Below are positions 1 through 7,715 of a stretch of DNA of 7,715 nt, in pieces. Numbering within the stretch: the stretch's first letter is position 1; each line of letters begins with the position of its first letter. The position numbers and the translations under genes are program-made. The notes beneath the pieces were generated by a model, which saw nothing but the letters and a program-made list of their open reading frames with translations, ran no database searches and was not told the DNA's origin. This DNA is from Methanosarcinales archaeon (GTDB taxonomy: Archaea > Halobacteriota > Methanosarcinia > Methanosarcinales > Methanogasteraceae): assembly GCA_030609345.1 (NCBI GenBank), contig JAUWCK010000045.1, positions 1-7,715 of the forward strand, read 5' to 3'.

Positions 1-141
1 CGCTGTGAACCCGGGCGCACCCTTCTTCGCCGCCCCTGCCGTCGTGCCTTCCGCCGCCGGTGCAGTCGCCTTTGCCGCCGCGGGTCTCTTCGTTGGTACT
101 GGCGTCAGTGTCACGCGCTCGCCCGGCGGCGCAGCCGTTGC
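1..141 (-). repeat. Inverted terminal repeat, left copy (shared C-terminal stalk and PGF cassette)
   Basis: Bases 1-141 are the exact reverse complement of 7575-7715. Both copies code, in the same frame, for the end of a surface protein from ATAAPPGERVTL to APGFTA. Beyond 141 the match continues with six scattered differences to about base 207, and protein similarity continues to FGLVGS at 256-273. The repeat is protein-coding, not a transposon end. Confidence 0.95.
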
Positions 142-3100
142 ATTTGCCGGTGCTTTTGTCGCGGTCACGGTCGGCGTCGGGGTCCCGAACCATCCTGGCG
201 GGTATGTGCCGCCGCCACCGCTGCTGCTGCTGCTGCTGCTGCTGCCGGTCGCCTTTGAACCGACAAGTCCGAAGGTGCAGAGGTGATCCACGTCAGCATA
301 GACGCATGTTCCGGATCTGGTACTGGGCTGCTTCACCCACTCTGTGGCATTGTCGTACTTCCATATCGCAAGGGTGCTTGCATCGATACCCAGAGCAGCG
401 AGCGTTGTAGCGTTGTAGCATATCTCGATGCGGATCGTGCCGTTTCCTGCTGCCAATTCATCGAGGATGTCCTTGCTCACGTTGACGGTGACGCCGCTCA
501 CAACCTTGTCACCGGACCCCAGACCGTAGCGTGGCTTGGAGGAATTGACCTCAGATGAGTTTGTGGCGTTTCCAATAGCAGTTATATTGATCCATCCGGT
601 CACGTCATCACCGAAGTCACAGGTTACGTTCACATCGCCGGATGTGACAATAGCCGTCCCATTGGTCACAGTCACATTGGTTGGTTCGGCAGCGTTCACG
701 GTCACATGTACCTCGTTGCTCGTCTTACTGCCGTTACTCACGGTTATGCGGGTTATTCCCACATGCTCTGCCGTGAAGTTCGTGGCAGTATCGTTTATCT
801 CAGTAAGCGATCCGATATATGCATCGCTGATAGCCCATTCAAATAGGAAGTACTCAGATATCTCCGCACCGTCCTGAGCATAACCTCTGGCTATGAAGTC
901 CTGCGACCCATTGATGTCCAACGTCTTCGAGGTCGGCGTCACGTTGATATGGTGAAGTGGTGGCACCCCCATCGGCGCAAAGACGCTGAATGTCGTGATG
1001 TTCACACCAACGACATTGCCTGTTGTATCCAGATACCGTCCATTATCCCAGCCGTCTTTGACCCACCCTGTGCCGTTATGCTTCCACACCGTGAGACTCG
1101 ATTCAACCATGGTGCCAGTGAGATCAGAGTCGGAATAACTGAAGTTTAGATATAACCATGCTCCTGCACTCTGGTTCATGGCGTTGATGAACTTGCTGAT
1201 GTTGTGCCATCCGGATGAGTCAGCTGCCGGCGAACCCTCGCCCTTGAGCGATACGTCTCCGCCGTATGTGAAGGAGACTGTTGTGCCGTTTAAGGTGTTG
1301 TCTGTGAAGGTGTTGGATGGTGAGCCCACGATCCAGATGTCCCAGTCGCTGTTATCCGACGCGGTGTTGCCCGTGAGCGTGTTGTTGCTCGAAGAATGCA
1401 GGTAGGTGCCCCGGTGGTTGTTCGATGCGATGTTATCAGAGATGTTGCAGTGATCCACACTGTTGAGGTAAATCCCGGCAAAGTCATCATTTGTCGCCGC
1501 GGTCACATTGAACCCTGAGATGTTCACGTAATCTGCGGTCACATCAAAGACGTGATCCGAAGCCGAAGCCGCGGTCACAGTCACCACATCCGCGCCCTCG
1601 CCTGCAAGCGTGAGACGCTTGTTCACGAGCACGTTCTCGTCATAGGTACCGTTCCAAACAAACACGCTGTCACCCTCAATCGCATTATCCACTGCTGCCT
1701 GTATCGGCGCCGTGTTGTTTGCGTTGAACACGCTGCCGTCACGCCACCAGCCGGTCTCGTTGACACAGATGTCGCCGCAGGTGCAGGGGAATGTTGCTAC
1801 CATCCTGGCGCGGAGACAGACGTTTTCGCCTCCGTCCGGGCTCGCCATGTCCGTCCACGAACAGCTACTGTTGTGCCTGATAAAGCTTACATTGGCCTGT
1901 ATAGTCGGACTGACCGTACCTGAAATTTCCGTTTCGACAGGTATAGGGTAACCATAACCCGGCGTGGTCATATTGACGCCAATCGTGAATTGCTGACCCG
2001 CATCCATCGGAATCGGAGTGTTCAGTGGTATGGAGTAGTAACCATACTCTTGACAGGTATCGGTTTGATTGGCAAGTTCACTTCCAAAATAACCATCCCA
2101 GACATAGATCTCATACTCGGCATTGTTGCTTGTTGTCCAGAAATCGACATGGGTTAAGTTCCCGGACTGGTCTGCGGTAAAGTTGCTTGCCATCCATGCG
2201 CCGCTGTCGCCGTAGCCCACGCTACCTACAAAACCAGCCTCATCCCAGTAGAGCAGTTCTTCATCAGGCACGGGGTCTTTATACTTAAGATAGGCTATGC
2301 TCCGGACACAACTTGAGTTGTATGCAAGATAGAAGTAGCCGTCATTTCCCCAATCTGTGCCCCAGCTGTTCTTGACGATCCATGCTCCTTCTCCGCTACT
2401 TTCTGGGTCCGGATGCGGGACGGAATCGTTCCAGCCTATGATCGACACTAAGTGATTAGCTCCAGAGCATGAATAGTATTCATAGATGAATCCCCATATC
2501 TCCTCATTACGCAGCCCAACATCGTCGTAATAGAAAGACATTGTAACAGGTCCGTGATCGTATACCGCAGTCTTTATCGCGTCAAGATCTAACCCGTCAT
2601 TCGTTACAAGCCGGTATCCATCAACTCTTTTGACAGGTGCACAATCATCACATACACACGACCCATCACAGTTCAAAGCCGTGGTGTTGTAAGGATTGCA
2701 TGATTCCAGAACCGAACCTTTCTTGATGAAAGCCTCGGCGGCAAGCCAGCCCCATCCACCACCCCTACAGGGGTCGTCAGCGCCGTCATACAGATATATC
2801 CATGAACGGTCAACGCACAAGGCTATGCTCTGCTCGGAGAAATTGTACTCTGTACTCTCATTTATCAGAACTGCTGATTCCAGTACCGATGTGGTTCCGA
2901 AGGTCCAGCAGGTGCCGCAAGTACTCTGGTTTTTGATCGGGGTCACGTTGCCGGAATCTCTCCAGTCGAAACTGCTGGGAAGCTCACCTGGCGCCTGAAT
3001 CCTCTTAACCGGGATCTCGTCCAGATGGCTCAAGTCTATGGGTGGGGGAATGTAGCCGTAAGTGTAGCCGATGGACGTCCTGAGCGGATTCGCATGGTAA

Positions 3101-3255
3101 GTCACAAAATCCGGATTCAGTGGAGCCGATTGGAGTTCTTCAGCCACATTAAACTCAGAGATGTTTACGTAATCCGCGCTCGCAGTAGCGGTCGTCGCCA
3201 TCCCGACCGCCACAAGTACCATCGCGGTTATCAGTATGTGATTTATCCGTTTCAT
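1..3255 (-). CDS. Secreted multidomain C1A (papain-like) cysteine protease with lectin-like, beta-helix and Ig-like domains, partial at C-terminus
   Basis: One reading frame is open from ATG at 3255 to the left edge (1085 codons, no stop), so the C-terminus is missing. Residues 1-27 form a signal peptide (basic start, hydrophobic core, ASA end). Residues about 95-325 are a papain-fold peptidase with the full active site: Gln110 and Cys116 in QSTCGTCWTF, His268 in GANHLVSIIGW, Asn296 in WIVKNSWGTDWG. Residues about 330-490 resemble the lectin-like domain that commonly follows archaeal C1A peptidases (GFVGSVGYGDSGAW, YEIYVWDGYFG). Residues about 500-665 are a NosD/PbH1-type right-handed beta-helix (IQAAVDNAIEGDSVFVWNGT, NNTLTGNTASDN). 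Residues about 768-855 look Ig-like, and 856-1000 are another beta-rich module. Then come Ser8-Gly4, a Pro/Thr/Ala stalk and APGFTA, the start of a PGF-CTERM sorting signal. Many NxS/T sequons suggest a glycosylated, surface-anchored enzyme acting on external protein. The substrate is unknown. Domain names are from memory of families. Confidence 0.93.
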   Translation of the reverse strand, partial: MKRINHILITAMVLVAVGMATTATASADYVNISEFNVAEELQSAPLNPDFVTYHANPLRTSIGYTYGYIPPPIDLSHLDEIPVKRIQAPGELPSSFDWRDSGNVTPIKNQSTCGTCWTFGTTSVLESAVLINESTEYNFSEQSIALCVDRSWIYLYDGADDPCRGGGWGWLAAEAFIKKGSVLESCNPYNTTALNCDGSCVCDDCAPVKRVDGYRLVTNDGLDLDAIKTAVYDHGPVTMSFYYDDVGLRNEEIWGFIYEYYSCSGANHLVSIIGWNDSVPHPDPESSGEGAWIVKNSWGTDWGNDGYFYLAYNSSCVRSIAYLKYKDPVPDEELLYWDEAGFVGSVGYGDSGAWMASNFTADQSGNLTHVDFWTTSNNAEYEIYVWDGYFGSELANQTDTCQEYGYYSIPLNTPIPMDAGQQFTIGVNMTTPGYGYPIPVETEISGTVSPTIQANVSFIRHNSSCSWTDMASPDGGENVCLRARMVATFPCTCGDICVNETGWWRDGSVFNANNTAPIQAAVDNAIEGDSVFVWNGTYDENVLVNKRLTLAGEGADVVTVTAASASDHVFDVTADYVNISGFNVTAATNDDFAGIYLNSVDHCNISDNIASNNHRGTYLHSSSNNTLTGNTASDNSDWDIWIVGSPSNTFTDNTLNGTTVSFTYGGDVSLKGEGSPAADSSGWHNISKFINAMNQSAGAWLYLNFSYSDSDLTGTMVESSLTVWKHNGTGWVKDGWDNGRYLDTTGNVVGVNITTFSVFAPMGVPPLHHINVTPTSKTLDINGSQDFIARGYAQDGAEISEYFLFEWAISDAYIGSLTEINDTATNFTAEHVGITRITVSNGSKTSNEVHVTVNAAEPTNVTVTNGTAIVTSGDVNVTCDFGDDVTGWINITAIGNATNSSEVNSSKPRYGLGSGDKVVSGVTVNVSKDILDELAAGNGTIRIEICYNATTLAALGIDASTLAIWKYDNATEWVKQPSTRSGTCVYADVDHLCTFGLVGSKATGSSSSSSSSGGGGTYPPGWFGTPTPTVTATKAPANATAAPPGERVTLTPVPTKRPAAAKATAPAAEGTTAGAAKKGAPGFTA
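220..243 (-). repeat. Pure (AGC)8 trinucleotide tract encoding Ser8
   Basis: Eight identical AGC codons in the protease linker encode residues 1005-1012, followed by Gly4. The homologous linker in the right-hand protein (IPTGGDGTYPP) has no such tract, which accounts for most of the 27-base length difference between the two cassettes. A pure triplet run is prone to in-frame length change. Confidence 0.9.
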
Positions 3256-3264
3256 GTCTTATAA

Positions 3265-3270
3265 TCCTCT
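3265..3270 (-). promoter_or_regulatory. Shine-Dalgarno of the cysteine protease gene
   Basis: On the minus strand AGAGGA lies nine bases upstream of the ATG at 3255. This good spacing supports that start, as does the signal peptide that immediately follows it. Confidence 0.65.
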
Positions 3271-3275
3271 TTTAG

Positions 3276-3295
3276 TATATTATTAATTAAATATG
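3276..3295 (-). promoter_or_regulatory. AT-rich archaeal promoter candidate for the cysteine protease gene
   Basis: A 20-base stretch of almost pure A/T, reading ATATTTAATTAATAATATAC on the minus strand, lies just upstream of the Shine-Dalgarno and fits a TATA box. If the box is its distal half, transcription would begin close to the start codon and the Shine-Dalgarno might lie at or before the mRNA end. A second weaker TATA-like site (CATATATTC, near 3355-3363) would give a leader of roughly 75 bases instead. The sequence alone does not decide between them. Confidence 0.45.
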
Positions 3296-3771
3296 GTTAT
3301 CTATCAGTAATAGTGACTATACACTCCCATCCATCGTCCGCAAAGCAGCAGAAGAGAATATATGCCGGAAGTAAAGCCGTGACCGGTTGCAGATACAAGC
3401 AATCCCACGATCCTGTATGGCGATACCGAACAGTCTGACGTTCCGCGGCGTTGTATGTGCGATTGCCTGCGCCTTCGTGTACTGTTTTTGCTTCCACACC
3501 AGATCTCCATCGAGATGTTCTTACGCGTTCGCACCACAAGCGGTAGTTCGCGATAAAGTTGTTGCCGGGTTTTTAAACCCACACTCTTATGTTCGTCGGT
3601 CGATACGCTCCTGCCATGTTAGGAGCTGTCAATAGTATAATACCCCTTCTGCTGCCTTTTCCTGTTGCCTCCGTCTTCCTATCTTCTGGCGTCAAGACCC
3701 TCATGGTCGTGGACAGTATCACGTCGCACAACCCGTACCCACCAGTCGATTACATCGTTATTCGCGTATGA

Positions 3772-3780
3772 TTTATAATA
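3772..3780 (+). promoter_or_regulatory. Orphan TATA box candidate (TTTATAATA)
   Basis: TTTATAATA matches the archaeal TATA consensus well and sits in otherwise mixed sequence. Transcription would begin around 3800-3806, inside or next to the hairpin at 3794-3829 and about 170 bases before mptA. It could drive an alternative long mptA leader or a small RNA. It could also be chance. Confidence 0.35.
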
Positions 3781-3793
3781 AAGGTTGTGATGA

Positions 3794-3829
3794 GCGGTAG
3801 CAGTAACGGCTCTGCTCGGCTGCTGCCGC
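3794..3829 (+). repeat. Strong stem-loop (10-bp inverted repeat) upstream of mptA
   Basis: GCGGTAGCAG at 3794-3803 pairs with CTGCTGCCGC at 3820-3829 over ten base pairs, one of them G-U when read as plus-strand RNA, around a 16-base loop. An alternative shorter pairing of AGCAG with CTGCT inside the same segment is also possible. A purine run (GAAAAAAGAAAG) follows rather than a U-tract, so on the plus strand it does not look like a terminator. Confidence 0.5.
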
Positions 3830-3918
3830 CGAAAAAAGAAAGATAGTGAATGGACGAATGTCCGCAGGCATCCTTGATCCGGACACCACGCGGTGACAGC
3901 ACATAGTCGTCCGCAAGA

Positions 3919-3929
3919 GTTATATATTA
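3919..3929 (+). promoter_or_regulatory. TATA box of mptA
   Basis: GTTATATATTA lies about 46-56 bases before the mptA ATG. Initiation about 25 bases downstream would give a leader of roughly 20-25 bases that still includes the Shine-Dalgarno. The purine-containing CGCAAGA just upstream is in the place of a BRE, although it is not a strong match. Confidence 0.6.
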
Positions 3930-3961
3930 CCGAACACAGCACACAACCAGATTACTCAGTC

Positions 3962-3965
3962 GGAG
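3962..3965 (+). promoter_or_regulatory. Shine-Dalgarno of mptA
   Basis: GGAG nine bases before the ATG at 3975 supports this start, as does the N-terminal sequence, which begins at the position expected for the family. Confidence 0.65.
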
Positions 3966-3974
3966 AATAATATC

Positions 3975-4955
3975 ATGAAACTACCTGTGGTCGAACTGCC
4001 GGACATTCAGGCAACCCGTCCTGCAATCCCGATTAACCTGACGCGCGTCGGCGTGACCGATGTCAAGAAACTGATCGAGATTGCGCGTGAGGGTAAGCGC
4101 CCGATCGTGCTCATCGCACGGTTCAACATCTTCGTGGACCTGCCGCCTGACCGCAAGGGTGCGAACCTTTCAAGGAACTTTGAGACGATCGATGAGGTTC
4201 TGGAGGAGGCGGTCGAGGCGCCGGTGTACGAGATAGAGGAGCTCTGTGGAGTTGTCGCACGCCGCCTCCTGACCAAGCACGAGTACGCGTCCCGCGCCGA
4301 GGTGCAGATGAACAGCGAATATGTGGTCAAGCGGGTGACTCCTGTGACACAGATGCACTGCCAGGGCGTGGCTAACATCTTCGCAGAGGCGATCGCCACA
4401 CGATCCGGCAACGACGGCGATATCACGGTTCGGAAACTCGTTGGCACAGAGGTTCTCGGGATGACCGCATGTCCGTGTGCGCAGGAGATCATGCATGACC
4501 GCGCCAGACAGGAGTTGTGCGATCTCGGAGTTCCTGATGCCACGATTGCGCAGTTCTTGAGCAGGGTTCCGATGGCGACCCATAACCAGCGCGGACGCGG
4601 AACCATCTCCATCGAGGTGCATGACGGATATGATGTCTCGATTGAGAAACTGATCGACATCACCGAGAACTCAATGAGTTCTAAGATATTCGAACTGCTC
4701 AAGCGATCTGACGAGGCGTCAGTAGTCGATACCGCACACCGGAACCCGAAGTTTGTTGAGGACTGTGTCCGGACGATGGCTCATTCGATCGTGAAGGAGT
4801 TTCCGTATCTGCCAGACGACTCCATGATCTCGATCAAGCAGATCAATGAGGAGAGTATCCACCAGCACAATGCCTGCGCCGAGCGGTCTGCCACACTCGG
4901 GGAACTGCGGACCGAACTGGCTGGAGTGATGCCGCTCCTGGACCAGGGCGCCTGA
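3975..4955 (+). CDS. mptA: GTP cyclohydrolase MptA (FolE2-like, type IB)
   Basis: Complete 326-residue protein of the FolE2/MptA family, at its usual length. In archaea MptA is an Fe(II)-dependent cytosolic enzyme that opens GTP to 7,8-dihydroneopterin 2',3'-cyclic phosphate, the first committed step toward tetrahydromethanopterin. MptB usually acts next and is not in this window. Family hallmarks are visible: [16 protein letters not shown] at 54-69, the metal/active-site region [14 protein letters not shown] with Cys166 and Cys168, [10 protein letters not shown] with His203, and [13 protein letters not shown] near the C-terminus with His296 and His298. The gene has its own TATA box and Shine-Dalgarno and appears monocistronic, because the next gene (argC) converges on it after only 29 bases. 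The main alternative is a folate- or queuosine-type FolE2 in a non-methanogen. The archaeal surface-protein context makes methanopterin the better reading. Confidence 0.93.
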
Positions 4956-4984
4956 ATCTGAATATCAGCCGTTCTTGGGCCGGG

Positions 4985-5998
4985 TCACGGCGACAGTGGA
5001 GGCGTCAGGAGTCCCGCTGTCTCAGGAAGACCGAACATCAGGTTCATGTTCTGGATCGCCTGCCCTGACGCACCTTTCACGAGGTTGTCGATCGCGGAGA
5101 CCACGACAACGCGTCGCCCCCCGCAGGCAATCCCGATGTCGCAGAAGTTTGAGCCGCGCACATCCGAAAGATTAGGTATACTGTCCCGCACCCGCACAAA
5201 CGGTTTATCCCGGTAGAACTCATTATACAGTCCCAGTACCGCGTCATAATCCTGCTCTTTGTGCAGGATGAGATGTGCGGTTGTCAGAATCCCGCGAATG
5301 GTAGGAACGACATGCGGCGTGAAATAAATGTTATTAAGCGAGCGATCCAGCCGGCTCAACTCCTGAACGATCTCTGGCAGATGCCTGTGCGTGGTGATGT
5401 TGTAAGCACGGACGTTCTCTGCGAGATTTGGGTAATGCGAGATGGCTGATGGATCTGCGCCTGCCCCGGATACCCCCGATTTGGAATCGAAGATCGCATA
5501 CTCAATCGATCCTTCGCTTGCAAGCGGTGCTGCCGAAAGTATCGCACCTGTCGGGTAGCATCCCGGATTTGCGACGAGATCCGCTTCTGCGATTCCCCCG
5601 TGCAGTTCAGGAAGACCAAAGACCGCACCTCCATCTCTCGGATCGGTGTGCGGACGCTTGTACGTGTCTTCGAAGACCTGCTGCGGCAGCCTGTAATCCG
5701 CGCTCAGATCGATGACGCGCGTACCGCCTGCGAGGAGTTCCGGGACGATATCCATCGCAGCGCCGTGCGGTACTGCCGTGAACACGACTTCGCACGCAGA
5801 AGCGATCTCCGATGGCGCGGGTCTGGCGAAAGCCAGATCGGTTAGCCCTGCGAGGTGCCTGTGAACGTCTGTCGCAGGAGTGCCTGCGAGCCGCCTCGAT
5901 GTCACGGTTCTGATCCTTGCTTCCGGGTGCTGCAGGAGCAGCCTGATCAGTTCCCCGCCTGTGTATCCTGAGCCGCCGATGATTCCAATATCGATCAT
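4985..5998 (-). CDS. argC: N-acetyl-gamma-glutamyl-phosphate reductase ArgC
   Basis: Complete 337-residue protein at normal ArgC length. It catalyses the NADPH-dependent reduction of N-acetyl-glutamyl 5-phosphate to the semialdehyde in arginine/ornithine biosynthesis, in the cytosol. The Rossmann nucleotide-binding motif is at the N-terminus (IGIIGGSGYTGGELIRLL, residues 4-21). The catalytic Cys147 lies in ANPGCYPTGA, the conserved SGVSGAG follows at 174-180, and His206 is in THRHLPEI. The start is fixed by the usual position of GxSGYTG, a few residues after Met. There is no clear Shine-Dalgarno (AAAGTACCC precedes the ATG), so a leaderless or short-leader mRNA is possible. Other arg genes are absent from the window, so this looks like a scattered rather than operonic arginine gene. 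A LysY-type role (LysW-linked lysine pathway) is less likely but cannot be fully excluded without comparing substrate-pocket residues. Confidence 0.95.
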   Translation of the reverse strand: MIDIGIIGGSGYTGGELIRLLLQHPEARIRTVTSRRLAGTPATDVHRHLAGLTDLAFARPAPSEIASACEVVFTAVPHGAAMDIVPELLAGGTRVIDLSADYRLPQQVFEDTYKRPHTDPRDGGAVFGLPELHGGIAEADLVANPGCYPTGAILSAAPLASEGSIEYAIFDSKSGVSGAGADPSAISHYPNLAENVRAYNITTHRHLPEIVQELSRLDRSLNNIYFTPHVVPTIRGILTTAHLILHKEQDYDAVLGLYNEFYRDKPFVRVRDSIPNLSDVRGSNFCDIGIACGGRRVVVVSAIDNLVKGASGQAIQNMNLMFGLPETAGLLTPPLSP

Positions 5999-6074
5999 GG
6001 GTACTTTAGTGGCGGACAGATCAAAAAGATTTTTCGGTGGCGCGGGGGTTTTCAGGTTGTGGAAAGGCAGCCGG

Positions 6075-6084
6075 AATATTTATC
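6075..6084. promoter_or_regulatory. TATA candidate shared by divergent promoters
   Basis: AATATTTATC on the plus strand (GATAAATATT on the minus strand) resembles an archaeal TATA box in both directions. Used leftward it would start argC mRNA near 6050, leaving about 55 bases of leader. Used rightward it would start near 6105, about 230 bases before the chosen start of the surface gene. The argC use is the more plausible. Confidence 0.4.
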
Positions 6085-6114
6085 AACATTACGAACCAGA
6101 GTAGAGCCAAACTG

Positions 6115-6157
6115 GGTGGGCGTGACCAATCAAAAAAGGTGGGCGAAATCCTCCCAC
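6115..6157 (+). promoter_or_regulatory. Octamer direct repeat plus short hairpin, possible operator
   Basis: GGTGGGCG occurs at 6115-6122 and again at 6138-6145, 23 bases apart start to start (about two helical turns). The second copy also forms a 5-bp stem with CCCAC at 6153-6157 around a nine-base loop. Such spacing would suit a dimeric regulator binding one DNA face, but the elements are short and could be chance. Confidence 0.25.
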
Positions 6158-6335
6158 TCAGGAAAAACAGGCGGGTCAACTCATGGGATACAGGCACATC
6201 ACCGGACAGAATAAAACGATTGTAAATGCTACATCCGACACGCTTACTCGTGCACACACGCTTATGGCGCCCGTCTGCGCCGCGGCAGCAGCAGCAGCGG
6301 GCGTGGACACTCTGATCGGAAACGGCGGCGTGGGT

Positions 6336-7715
6336 ATGATGAAAGTTAGTAGAAGCATCCGGAAAGAGTGCGACAGGGTGATCTTAATCGCTTTTGCTGC
6401 TGCAATGCTTGCGGTTTGCATCTCGCCTGCTCTGGCATCGGCAACATACATCCCGCCAGACCCCGCAAACCTTGCGAACACCACGGGGCGCTACTGGGTG
6501 AACTATACATGGCAGGCAGGGTCGGAATGGCATCTCATAGCAGGTGAAGCGGGTGGCGGATTTTATGGTTACAACTGGACCGGTTCTGCGTGGCAGAATG
6601 ATAGCGTGATAGCAAGCGGTCTTCCCGGTGGCGGCAATTATTCAGCGCCAACTGTCTTTCGGAAAGACGGGGGTTGGTATCTCATAGCAGGTGGGATGGA
6701 TGGCGCATTTCATGGTTACAACTGGACAGATTCTGCGTGGCAGAGTGATGGTGCGATAGCAGGCGGTCTTCTCGATGTCGGGGATAAATCAACACCAACC
6801 GTCTTTCAGAAAGACAAAGCGTGGTATCTCATAGCAGGGGGGATGGATGGCGGCTTTCATGGTTACAAGTGGACAGATTCTGCGTGGCAGAATGATAGTG
6901 CGATAGCAAGTGGTCTTCCCGATGCCGATCTTCCTGATGCAGAGGATCATTCAACACCAACCGTCTTTCAGAAAGATGAAAAGTGGTATCTTATAGCAGG
7001 GGGCATGGATGGCAGATTTTATGGTTACAACTGGACAAGTTCTGCGTGGCAAACCGATAGTGCGATAGCAAGTGGTCTTCCCGGTGGCGGGAATTATTCA
7101 GCGCCGGCTGTCTTTCAGAAAGACGAAGCGTGGCATCTTATAGCAGGTGACAAGGATGGCGCCTTTCATGGTTACAACTGGACAGGTTTTGCATGGCAGA
7201 ATGATAGTGTGATAGTAAGTGGTCTTCCCGATGTCGGGGATAACTCAACACTGGCAGTCTTTGATATGGGCAACGTCACAGACTCATATAACATCAGCGT
7301 AAACGAGGACTGGCACAACGGCACCACAAACACGTCCATAAATGAGACCGTCGATTCAGGCGGATGGTTAAACATTACGGTATGGGCGTGGAATGCATCC
7401 GGCACCGGAACGCTCTCGGCAGGTTGCGTCAGCGATGACATGCAGGCGCCGGAAGAACTCGACAGTACCTTCGGGCTTGTCGGTTCAATACCAACTGGTG
7501 GTGACGGCACGTACCCGCCAGGATGGTTCGGGACCCCGACACCGACCGTGACCGCAACGAAAGCACCGGTAAACGCAACGGCTGCGCCGCCGGGCGAGCG
7601 CGTGACACTGACGCCAGTACCAACGAAGAGACCCGCGGCGGCAAAGGCGACTGCACCGGCGGCGGAAGGCACGACGGCAGGGGCGGCGAAGAAGGGTGCG
7701 CCCGGGTTCACAGCG
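6336..7715 (+). CDS. Secreted surface protein: five-repeat (propeller-like) domain nested in a beta-sandwich module, PGF-type anchor, partial
   Basis: Open from ATG at 6336 (a second ATG follows at 6339) to the right edge; 460 residues are seen and the C-terminus is missing. The start was chosen because residues 1-36 make a convincing signal peptide (SRSIRK, then a hydrophobic core, ending ALASA). Residues 41-63 (PDPANLANTTGRYWVNYTWQ..) and 312-361 (GNVTDSYNISVN.., WLNITVWAWNASGTGTLS) look like two halves of one fibronectin-like module common in methanogen surface proteins. Between them lie five repeats starting at Trp residues 65, 114, 163, 217 and 266. Each repeat has W-Y/H-LIAG, DG-x-F-x-GY-x-W, SAWQ, GLP and TPTVF elements. 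Residues 379-460 are FGLVGS, a Pro/Thr/Ala stalk and APGFTA, matching the left-hand protease. Sequons are frequent. The likely role is binding or adhesion at the cell surface; the ligand is unknown. An upstream in-frame ATG at 6183 is a less likely start. Confidence 0.85.
   Translation, partial: MMKVSRSIRKECDRVILIAFAAAMLAVCISPALASATYIPPDPANLANTTGRYWVNYTWQAGSEWHLIAGEAGGGFYGYNWTGSAWQNDSVIASGLPGGGNYSAPTVFRKDGGWYLIAGGMDGAFHGYNWTDSAWQSDGAIAGGLLDVGDKSTPTVFQKDKAWYLIAGGMDGGFHGYKWTDSAWQNDSAIASGLPDADLPDAEDHSTPTVFQKDEKWYLIAGGMDGRFYGYNWTSSAWQTDSAIASGLPGGGNYSAPAVFQKDEAWHLIAGDKDGAFHGYNWTGFAWQNDSVIVSGLPDVGDNSTLAVFDMGNVTDSYNISVNEDWHNGTTNTSINETVDSGGWLNITVWAWNASGTGTLSAGCVSDDMQAPEELDSTFGLVGSIPTGGDGTYPPGWFGTPTPTVTATKAPVNATAAPPGERVTLTPVPTKRPAAAKATAPAAEGTTAGAAKKGAPGFTA
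6528..7268 (+). repeat. Five tandem 147-base coding repeats (49 residues each; the third 162 bases)
   Basis: Units begin at TGG codons at 6528, 6675, 6822, 6984 and 7131, spaced 147, 147, 162 and 147 bases. Units 2 and 3 differ at only about 8 of the first 96 bases by eye, so the array is young or kept uniform by recombination. Unit 3 carries an extra five codons at 6915-6944. Each unit has four strand-like segments, as expected for beta-propeller blades; five units would make a five-bladed propeller. That fold is inference. Confidence 0.85.
7575..7715 (+). repeat. Inverted terminal repeat, right copy (shared C-terminal stalk and PGF cassette)
   Basis: Exact reverse complement of 1-141. The six differences in the adjoining 7509-7574 are all synonymous except one Ala/Val change (KAPAN versus KAPVN). 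The sequence stops at the PGF motif, just where a hydrophobic membrane segment and a short basic tail would be expected. Confidence 0.95.

Follow-up and report, generated by a model that had tools for sequence, protein, structure and literature searches.

Domain nesting is in itself a known feature of proteins. The propeller lectins PLL, RSL and AAL consist of repetitive blades, six or seven in number, and in integrins a beta-propeller is the host into which the alpha-I domain is inserted. The available part of PMC12422189 describes how a domain inserted in such a receptor adds ligand binding, and the available parts of PMC9218822 and PMC6805158 describe new propellers amplified from single blades. 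Here we analyse a 7,715-nt stretch of DNA (contig JAUWCK010000045.1, positions 1 to 7,715, assembly GCA_030609345.1; hereafter the window) from a Methanosarcinales archaeon of the Methanogasteraceae, in which a surface-protein gene carries five repeats inside what a first-pass annotation had taken for a fibronectin-like module. We consider it rather probable that the product is an anchored archaeal surface protein in which a closed five-bladed beta-propeller sits on the B–C loop of a fibronectin type III (FN3)-like module and faces outward as a non-catalytic, ligand-binding head. Judging by the names of its relatives, the source organism is most likely Candidatus Methanogaster or something closely related (Methanosarcinales, ANME-2 cluster). 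These archaea consume methane, and the source organism is probably a methane consumer as well.

Insert, junctions and host module

The last base encoding TWQAGS is 6524 and the first encoding GNVTDSYN is 7269, with 744 nt (248 codons) between them, exactly the interval (6525–7268) at which the first-pass annotation had placed a split between AGS and GNVT. The junctions are sharp to within about one residue: relatives have AGS/GW or AGS/EW where the split starts and FDM/GNVT or FDM/GSNVT where it ends. Within the insert, Tandem Repeats Finder (TRF) reports a 147-nt period in 4.8 copies at 6528–7251, independently of our unit profile, which gives 101–108 bits on each window copy, having been made from these same copies; the five units are 59–78% identical in pairwise comparison. 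No target-site duplication was found, the 40-nt windows at both junctions sharing a word of at most 6 nt, and a transposon or mobile-element origin was dropped on that ground (terminal inverted repeats were not searched for).

A search with the joined flanks (89 residues) gave matches in 47 of 99 relative genomes at an expect value (E) of 0.001 or less, split matches included; the nine best rows, with 65–83% identity, show no break or almost none. Unbroken matches include G004:C56 (83% over 1–89), G005:C170 (77% over 1–88), G053 (69%) and G091 (65%). Uninterrupted homologues also occur within the genus, at the corresponding locus. When the 248-residue insert is searched by itself, 8 of these 99 genomes have matches, in some cases outside any nested arrangement. 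In an alignment of 51 proteins, hand-picked from the search returns, a row has a full insert, a short scar or nothing between strands B and C. The first-pass annotation had taken the flanks for one continuous module, and they do align without a break in these relatives. Pfam fn3 (PF00041) gives a weak match (E 0.0035) in one of the 17 uninterrupted segments, and it matches an uninterrupted relative 57% identical to the joined flanks (L125:586–849) with 30.0 bits (cut-off 25) over profile positions 2–82 of 84.

Predicted structure

In a structure model built on a deeper alignment, both flanks form strands of one module (block predicted local distance difference test, pLDDT, 77–92; first ten residues 69), with seven host strands in the order A, B, C, C', E, F, G, as taken from the strand list without pairing. 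Together with the uninterrupted homologues, this prediction supports the domain-in-domain insertion proposed by the first-pass annotation. The insert is predicted to form the repeated four-stranded blades of a beta-propeller. Its ends coincide with the position of the hairpin turn that links the VF and WYLIAG strands in other units, and the strand list reads as one blade common to both ends: STLAVF, the last strand of repeat 5, would supply strand four of the blade that opens at the insert start.

The best structural matches of the ring are glycoside hydrolases of family GH43 (e.g. 3qef and 3qee), with GH32, GH62 and GH117 also in the rows; identity to the ten best rows is 8–15%. We used VIA matches as evidence, and not the Foldseek root-mean-square deviations of 6–18 Å. 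Profile searches against the PDB gave weak matches, the best (E 0.3) to a GH32 enzyme. Tachylectin-2 is absent from the 50 structural rows compared, an absence that excludes nothing. Among the 25 Pfam families listed for 13 members, we found no fitting model for the propeller family. A WYL identity was rejected, since the 33.2 bits of P0015 (cut-off 21.8) come from repeats of a 12-residue match to the WYL-like strand, no stretch of which passes alone; WDR55, YtkA, CBM26 and other Pfam matches on the ring were set aside as below cut-off or confined to single members.

The wider propeller family

Three protein searches, the third represented by its best 120 of 167 matches, yielded 240 proteins, of which 121 contain 127 arrays of at least two units; those with fewer than two detected units (the single-copy P0025 and P0045, and scars) were left out of the count. 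Complete arrays number 112. The 23 nested in the window's host type (assigned by rule for 22 and by hand for P0019) begin and end at a unit boundary, here called register II. Of the 89 elsewhere, 54 are in register I, with mid-unit ends (half + 4 + half), 6 are in register II, which is thus not unique to the nested host, and 29 are in neither. A closed propeller leads one to expect two circular registers of a single five-unit array, and comparison across the family yields both. After rounding, the register I arrays comprise 46 of five units, 6 of four, 1 of three and 1 of ten, and 12 of the remaining 35 complete arrays also round to five.

In a scan of 84,980 species, 87 pattern matches gave 10 confirmed loci, every one of which its record title assigns to archaea: Methanosarcinales, Nanoarchaeota, Micrarchaeota, Aenigmarchaeota, Altiarchaeota, Nanohalarchaeota and one uncultured archaeon. 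Three protein-search matches carry bacterial labels from metagenome bins, and we therefore do not claim that the family is restricted to archaea.

Filled, scarred and empty alleles

For the gene neighbourhood we turned to relatives. Six of the eight nearest-genus genomes have the gene in a common neighbourhood, as far as the contigs extend, with a 487-aa gene upstream in four and an ATPase, a flavin adenine dinucleotide (FAD) protein or both downstream in five. The locus holds five units in G006, a scar in G001 and G003, an empty module in G002 and G004, and two tandem empty modules in G005; G007, where the search found nothing, and G008, whose sole match is to a different protein lacking the signal sequence, do not inform on it. 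The scars are 21–27 residues long and retain the reading frame and the end of the last unit, and are therefore most simply explained as remnants of a ring once present and since lost. Gain and loss can thus be traced within a genus. A tree of the host module with the insert removed (38 rows: 17 filled, 11 scarred, 10 empty) requires at least nine state changes, mostly on weak branches, and may leave room for a single origin of the insertion.

Blade number varies as well. Among 17 nested arrays of the window's family, seven have five units, six have four, three have three and one has two, besides the single-copy and scarred proteins; the five repeats of the first-pass annotation hold for the window and are not a fixed count in the family. 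Two proteins, P0007 and P0008, are identical save one residue and exactly one 49-residue unit, perhaps through strain-level blade gain or loss, or through assembly collapse. The two-unit allele of G013 is spread over two reading frames of 193 and 141 aa (L037, 4381–5381, minus strand), perhaps reflecting a frameshift or an assembly error.

Other hosts and virus contigs

Comparison with other hosts reveals a nesting pattern broader than the first-pass annotation had claimed. P0154 has the ring within a Laminin_G_3 domain, whose 61.3 bits in two stretches become 76.2 bits in one (1–150 of 151) once the flanks are joined. P0015, L079 and L086 carry the ring inside an immunoglobulin-like (Ig-like) module, and the joined flanks of P0015 have uninterrupted copies in 4 of 10 genomes or records (G103 58%, G105 57%, G100 48%, G102 44%). 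Another Ig-like module contains it in L080, with an uninterrupted copy (66%) within the same 5136-residue frame; for host C, uninterrupted relatives are weak (29–34%). Outside the window's family there are six nested cases, each of five units (for P0162, 4.5 by profile and five by reading). The same junctions of Ig-like hosts also receive other inserts in an Altiarchaeota genome and a Nanoarchaeota genome: a propeller-like array of seven repeats, with no Pfam model, in L106 (frame residues 776–1065) and, after SSCILVWE, an NHL/Vgb-type propeller (81 bits) in L107, where another host copy has a DUF2341 and LamG block.

A single scan of a virus collection of 2.9 million contigs found the ring encoded in two (L086 and L087). 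In L086 the gene next to the ring gene matches the tail family phrog_1887 (E 1.9e-6), and in L087 the adjoining gene gives weak baseplate-hub matches (E 0.0015 and 0.0023), no stretch of which passes alone. The position beside tail-like genes would fit a recognition role, on thin evidence, and makes adhesion a testable question. With P0018 as query, a second virus scan returned one further contig, L133, whose match may lie in the ring or elsewhere in P0018.

Function and alternative explanations

A binding head could be displayed as follows. The ring would be cut at the hairpin between a VF and a WYLIAG strand, which would bring its two ends side by side and let them pass directly into strands B and C of the host. 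The B–C loop of FN3 folds lies at the pole opposite the C-terminus. The C-terminus of the module would lead through the stalk to a PGF-CTERM anchor, and with that geometry the ring would face outward from the cell. We ascribe the anchor to the window protein because P0002, a complete near-copy (479 aa, 98% identity), matches TIGR04126 at its C-terminus (27.6 bits, cut-off 24.5); the window gene ends before this motif. Ligand binding is our best guess for the role of the propeller, and the ligand would probably be a glycan or glycoprotein.

Several points weigh against a closed, outward-facing binding ring on a single host sandwich. With a shallower alignment, a first AlphaFold 2 (AF2) model gave the flanks pLDDT values under 50, and the host sandwich became confident only with an alignment rich in uninterrupted rows, which possibly steered the model. 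Strand pairing and ring closure were taken from the strand list and not from coordinates; the fold search list was filled by propellers before the sandwich part was reached; and a PDB sequence search with the window protein returned no match, and so no clear sequence relative of known structure. The joined flanks themselves have no fn3 among their Pfam matches up to E 1. Finally, 31 of the 89 complete arrays outside the window's host do not round to five, and alleles of one to four blades could not close a five-blade ring in a single chain.

The main rival to ligand binding sees in the nested propeller a structural spacer, or else a shield bearing glycans, which would raise the module and cover it, its blade number hence being loosely constrained; we regard this as somewhat unlikely. 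It would account for the 10 N-glycosylation sequons in the insert, as against 1.2 in letter shuffles, and for the range from five blades to a scar within one family. It could also draw on the ratio of nonsynonymous to synonymous rates (dN/dS), 0.42 for the insert against 0.11 for ArgC (from a single pair and small segments; for the second flank, where dS is very low, the ratio is 1.39), values that we do not use as an argument for selection. Against it stand the preponderance of five units elsewhere (58 of 89 complete arrays outside the window's host) and the tail-like genes beside the ring in both virus contigs.

It is improbable that the variation in blade number is mainly an assembly artefact, with 147-nt repeats collapsed from a state that is always five. 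The sources do appear to be metagenome assemblies, and the P0007/P0008 pair is what a collapse might leave, but the window units differ by 22–41% in protein, which hinders collapse, and scars recur in 11 of 38 tree rows and in two shared-locus genomes.

A glycoside hydrolase of the GH43 or GH32 kind is suggested by the best structural matches and the weak GH32 profile match. An enzyme is nonetheless very improbable, because an Asp before the strand-A Pro (the DP motif), which we take to be the position of the GH43 catalytic base, is nearly absent: it occurs in none of the window's five units, in 0 of 101 blades matched by a motif pattern that covers only part of the blades, and in 3 of 408 in a recount of all aligned blades (119 proteins). 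Nor do the 25 families of the 13 members include a GH43 or GH32 model (single weak matches are to such families as CBM26 and Glucodextran_B), and blades so nearly identical offer no distinct active site. That the repeats lie between two separate small domains with no common sandwich, as the flanks of the first model might suggest, is hardly credible given the unbroken joined-flank matches, the 51-protein alignment, the later model, the fn3 match in an uninterrupted relative and the gain in score on joining the analogous LamG host.

With an outward binding head as the preferred reading, such a head would be of a kind set into the loops of several sandwich hosts. It is possible, if doubtful, that a socket-and-cartridge design of surface proteins is common to archaea and their tailed viruses: loops of FN3-like, Big-type Ig-like and LamG modules would take interchangeable propellers. 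One undescribed, mainly archaeal five-blade family would then fit different sockets through different ring cuts; blade number in the Methanogasteraceae would still be changing, and alleles of one to four blades may form rings between chains. Not every low-blade allele need be real. The window protein may be a clear case of an archaeal route to a stalk head that needs no tandem linker, a ring with adjacent ends being set into an outward-pointing loop.

Other features of the window

The features of the gene are collected in Table 1. We found no Rfam family, no tRNA and no bacterial-type promoter signal in 5990–6500.

Table 1. Features of the surface-protein gene, in window coordinates
Feature	Coordinates	Strand	Remarks
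Surface-protein gene	6336–7715	+	Open reading frame (ORF) open at window end; 460 of ~479 aa in window
Signal peptide (MMKVSRSIRKEC...ALA)	6336–6437	+	Assigned by reading; conserved in relatives
Host FN3-like module, first part	6438–6524	+	29 residues; predicted strands A and B (model residues 10–17, 20–26)
Inserted five-bladed beta-propeller (predicted)	6525–7268	+	TRF, unit profile, structure model
Repeat 1	6528–6674	+	49 aa; unit profile
Repeat 2	6675–6821	+	49 aa; unit profile
Repeat 3	6822–6983	+	54 aa, with 5-residue loop extension; unit profile
Repeat 4	6984–7130	+	49 aa; unit profile
Repeat 5	7131–7268	+	46 aa; last strand STLAVF = model 271–276
Host FN3-like module, second part	7269–7445 (end approximate)	+	Predicted strands C, C', E, F, G (model 283–288, 291–296, 300–304, 310–319, 325–336)
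Thr/Pro/Ala-rich stalk leading to PGF-CTERM anchor	7446–7715	+	Anchor beyond window; seen in P0002

On the minus strand, 1–3255 encodes a papain-like C1 peptidase with a lectin-like domain, a NosD-type beta-helix and the same stalk. The window ends (1–219 and 7497–7715) form a 219-bp inverted repeat, 96% identical, within the stalk regions of two different surface proteins, which is perhaps why the contig ends there. Synteny switches within the window: up to 6062 it matches the argC–mptA locus of same-genus relatives (90–95%), and from 6066 the locus of the surface protein, which lies on other contigs (94% to G005), the junction perhaps being a rearrangement or a chimeric contig.

Comparison with known systems

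Among titles and abstract openings, with subscription papers mostly outside the scope, we found no description of a propeller nested in an FN3-like module; the propeller nested here belongs to a family that no Pfam model was found to fit. The host resembles fn3 in its seven predicted strands and through the relative that passes the fn3 cut-off, and differs in having no fn3 match of its own and in the 248 residues carried by its B–C loop. From GH43-type five-bladed propellers the ring differs in its low identity, its near-identical blades, its nesting in another domain and the near absence of the strand-A Asp. With the lectins PLL, RSL and AAL (the last labelled six-bladed in the structural match list) it shares the propeller fold (Foldseek E about 3e-7 to 1e-5), whereas their blade number of six or seven is different and no sequence relation to them was found. 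Propellers amplified from single blades share high internal symmetry and changing blade number with the window family (available parts of PMC9218822 and PMC6805158); nested propellers are not described in the available text of either, and in PMC9218822 "inserted" and "permut" have 0 occurrences. The integrin alpha-I case is alike in being a receptor with an inserted ligand-binding domain (available part of PMC12422189). In the window protein, by contrast, the propeller is the guest and not the host.
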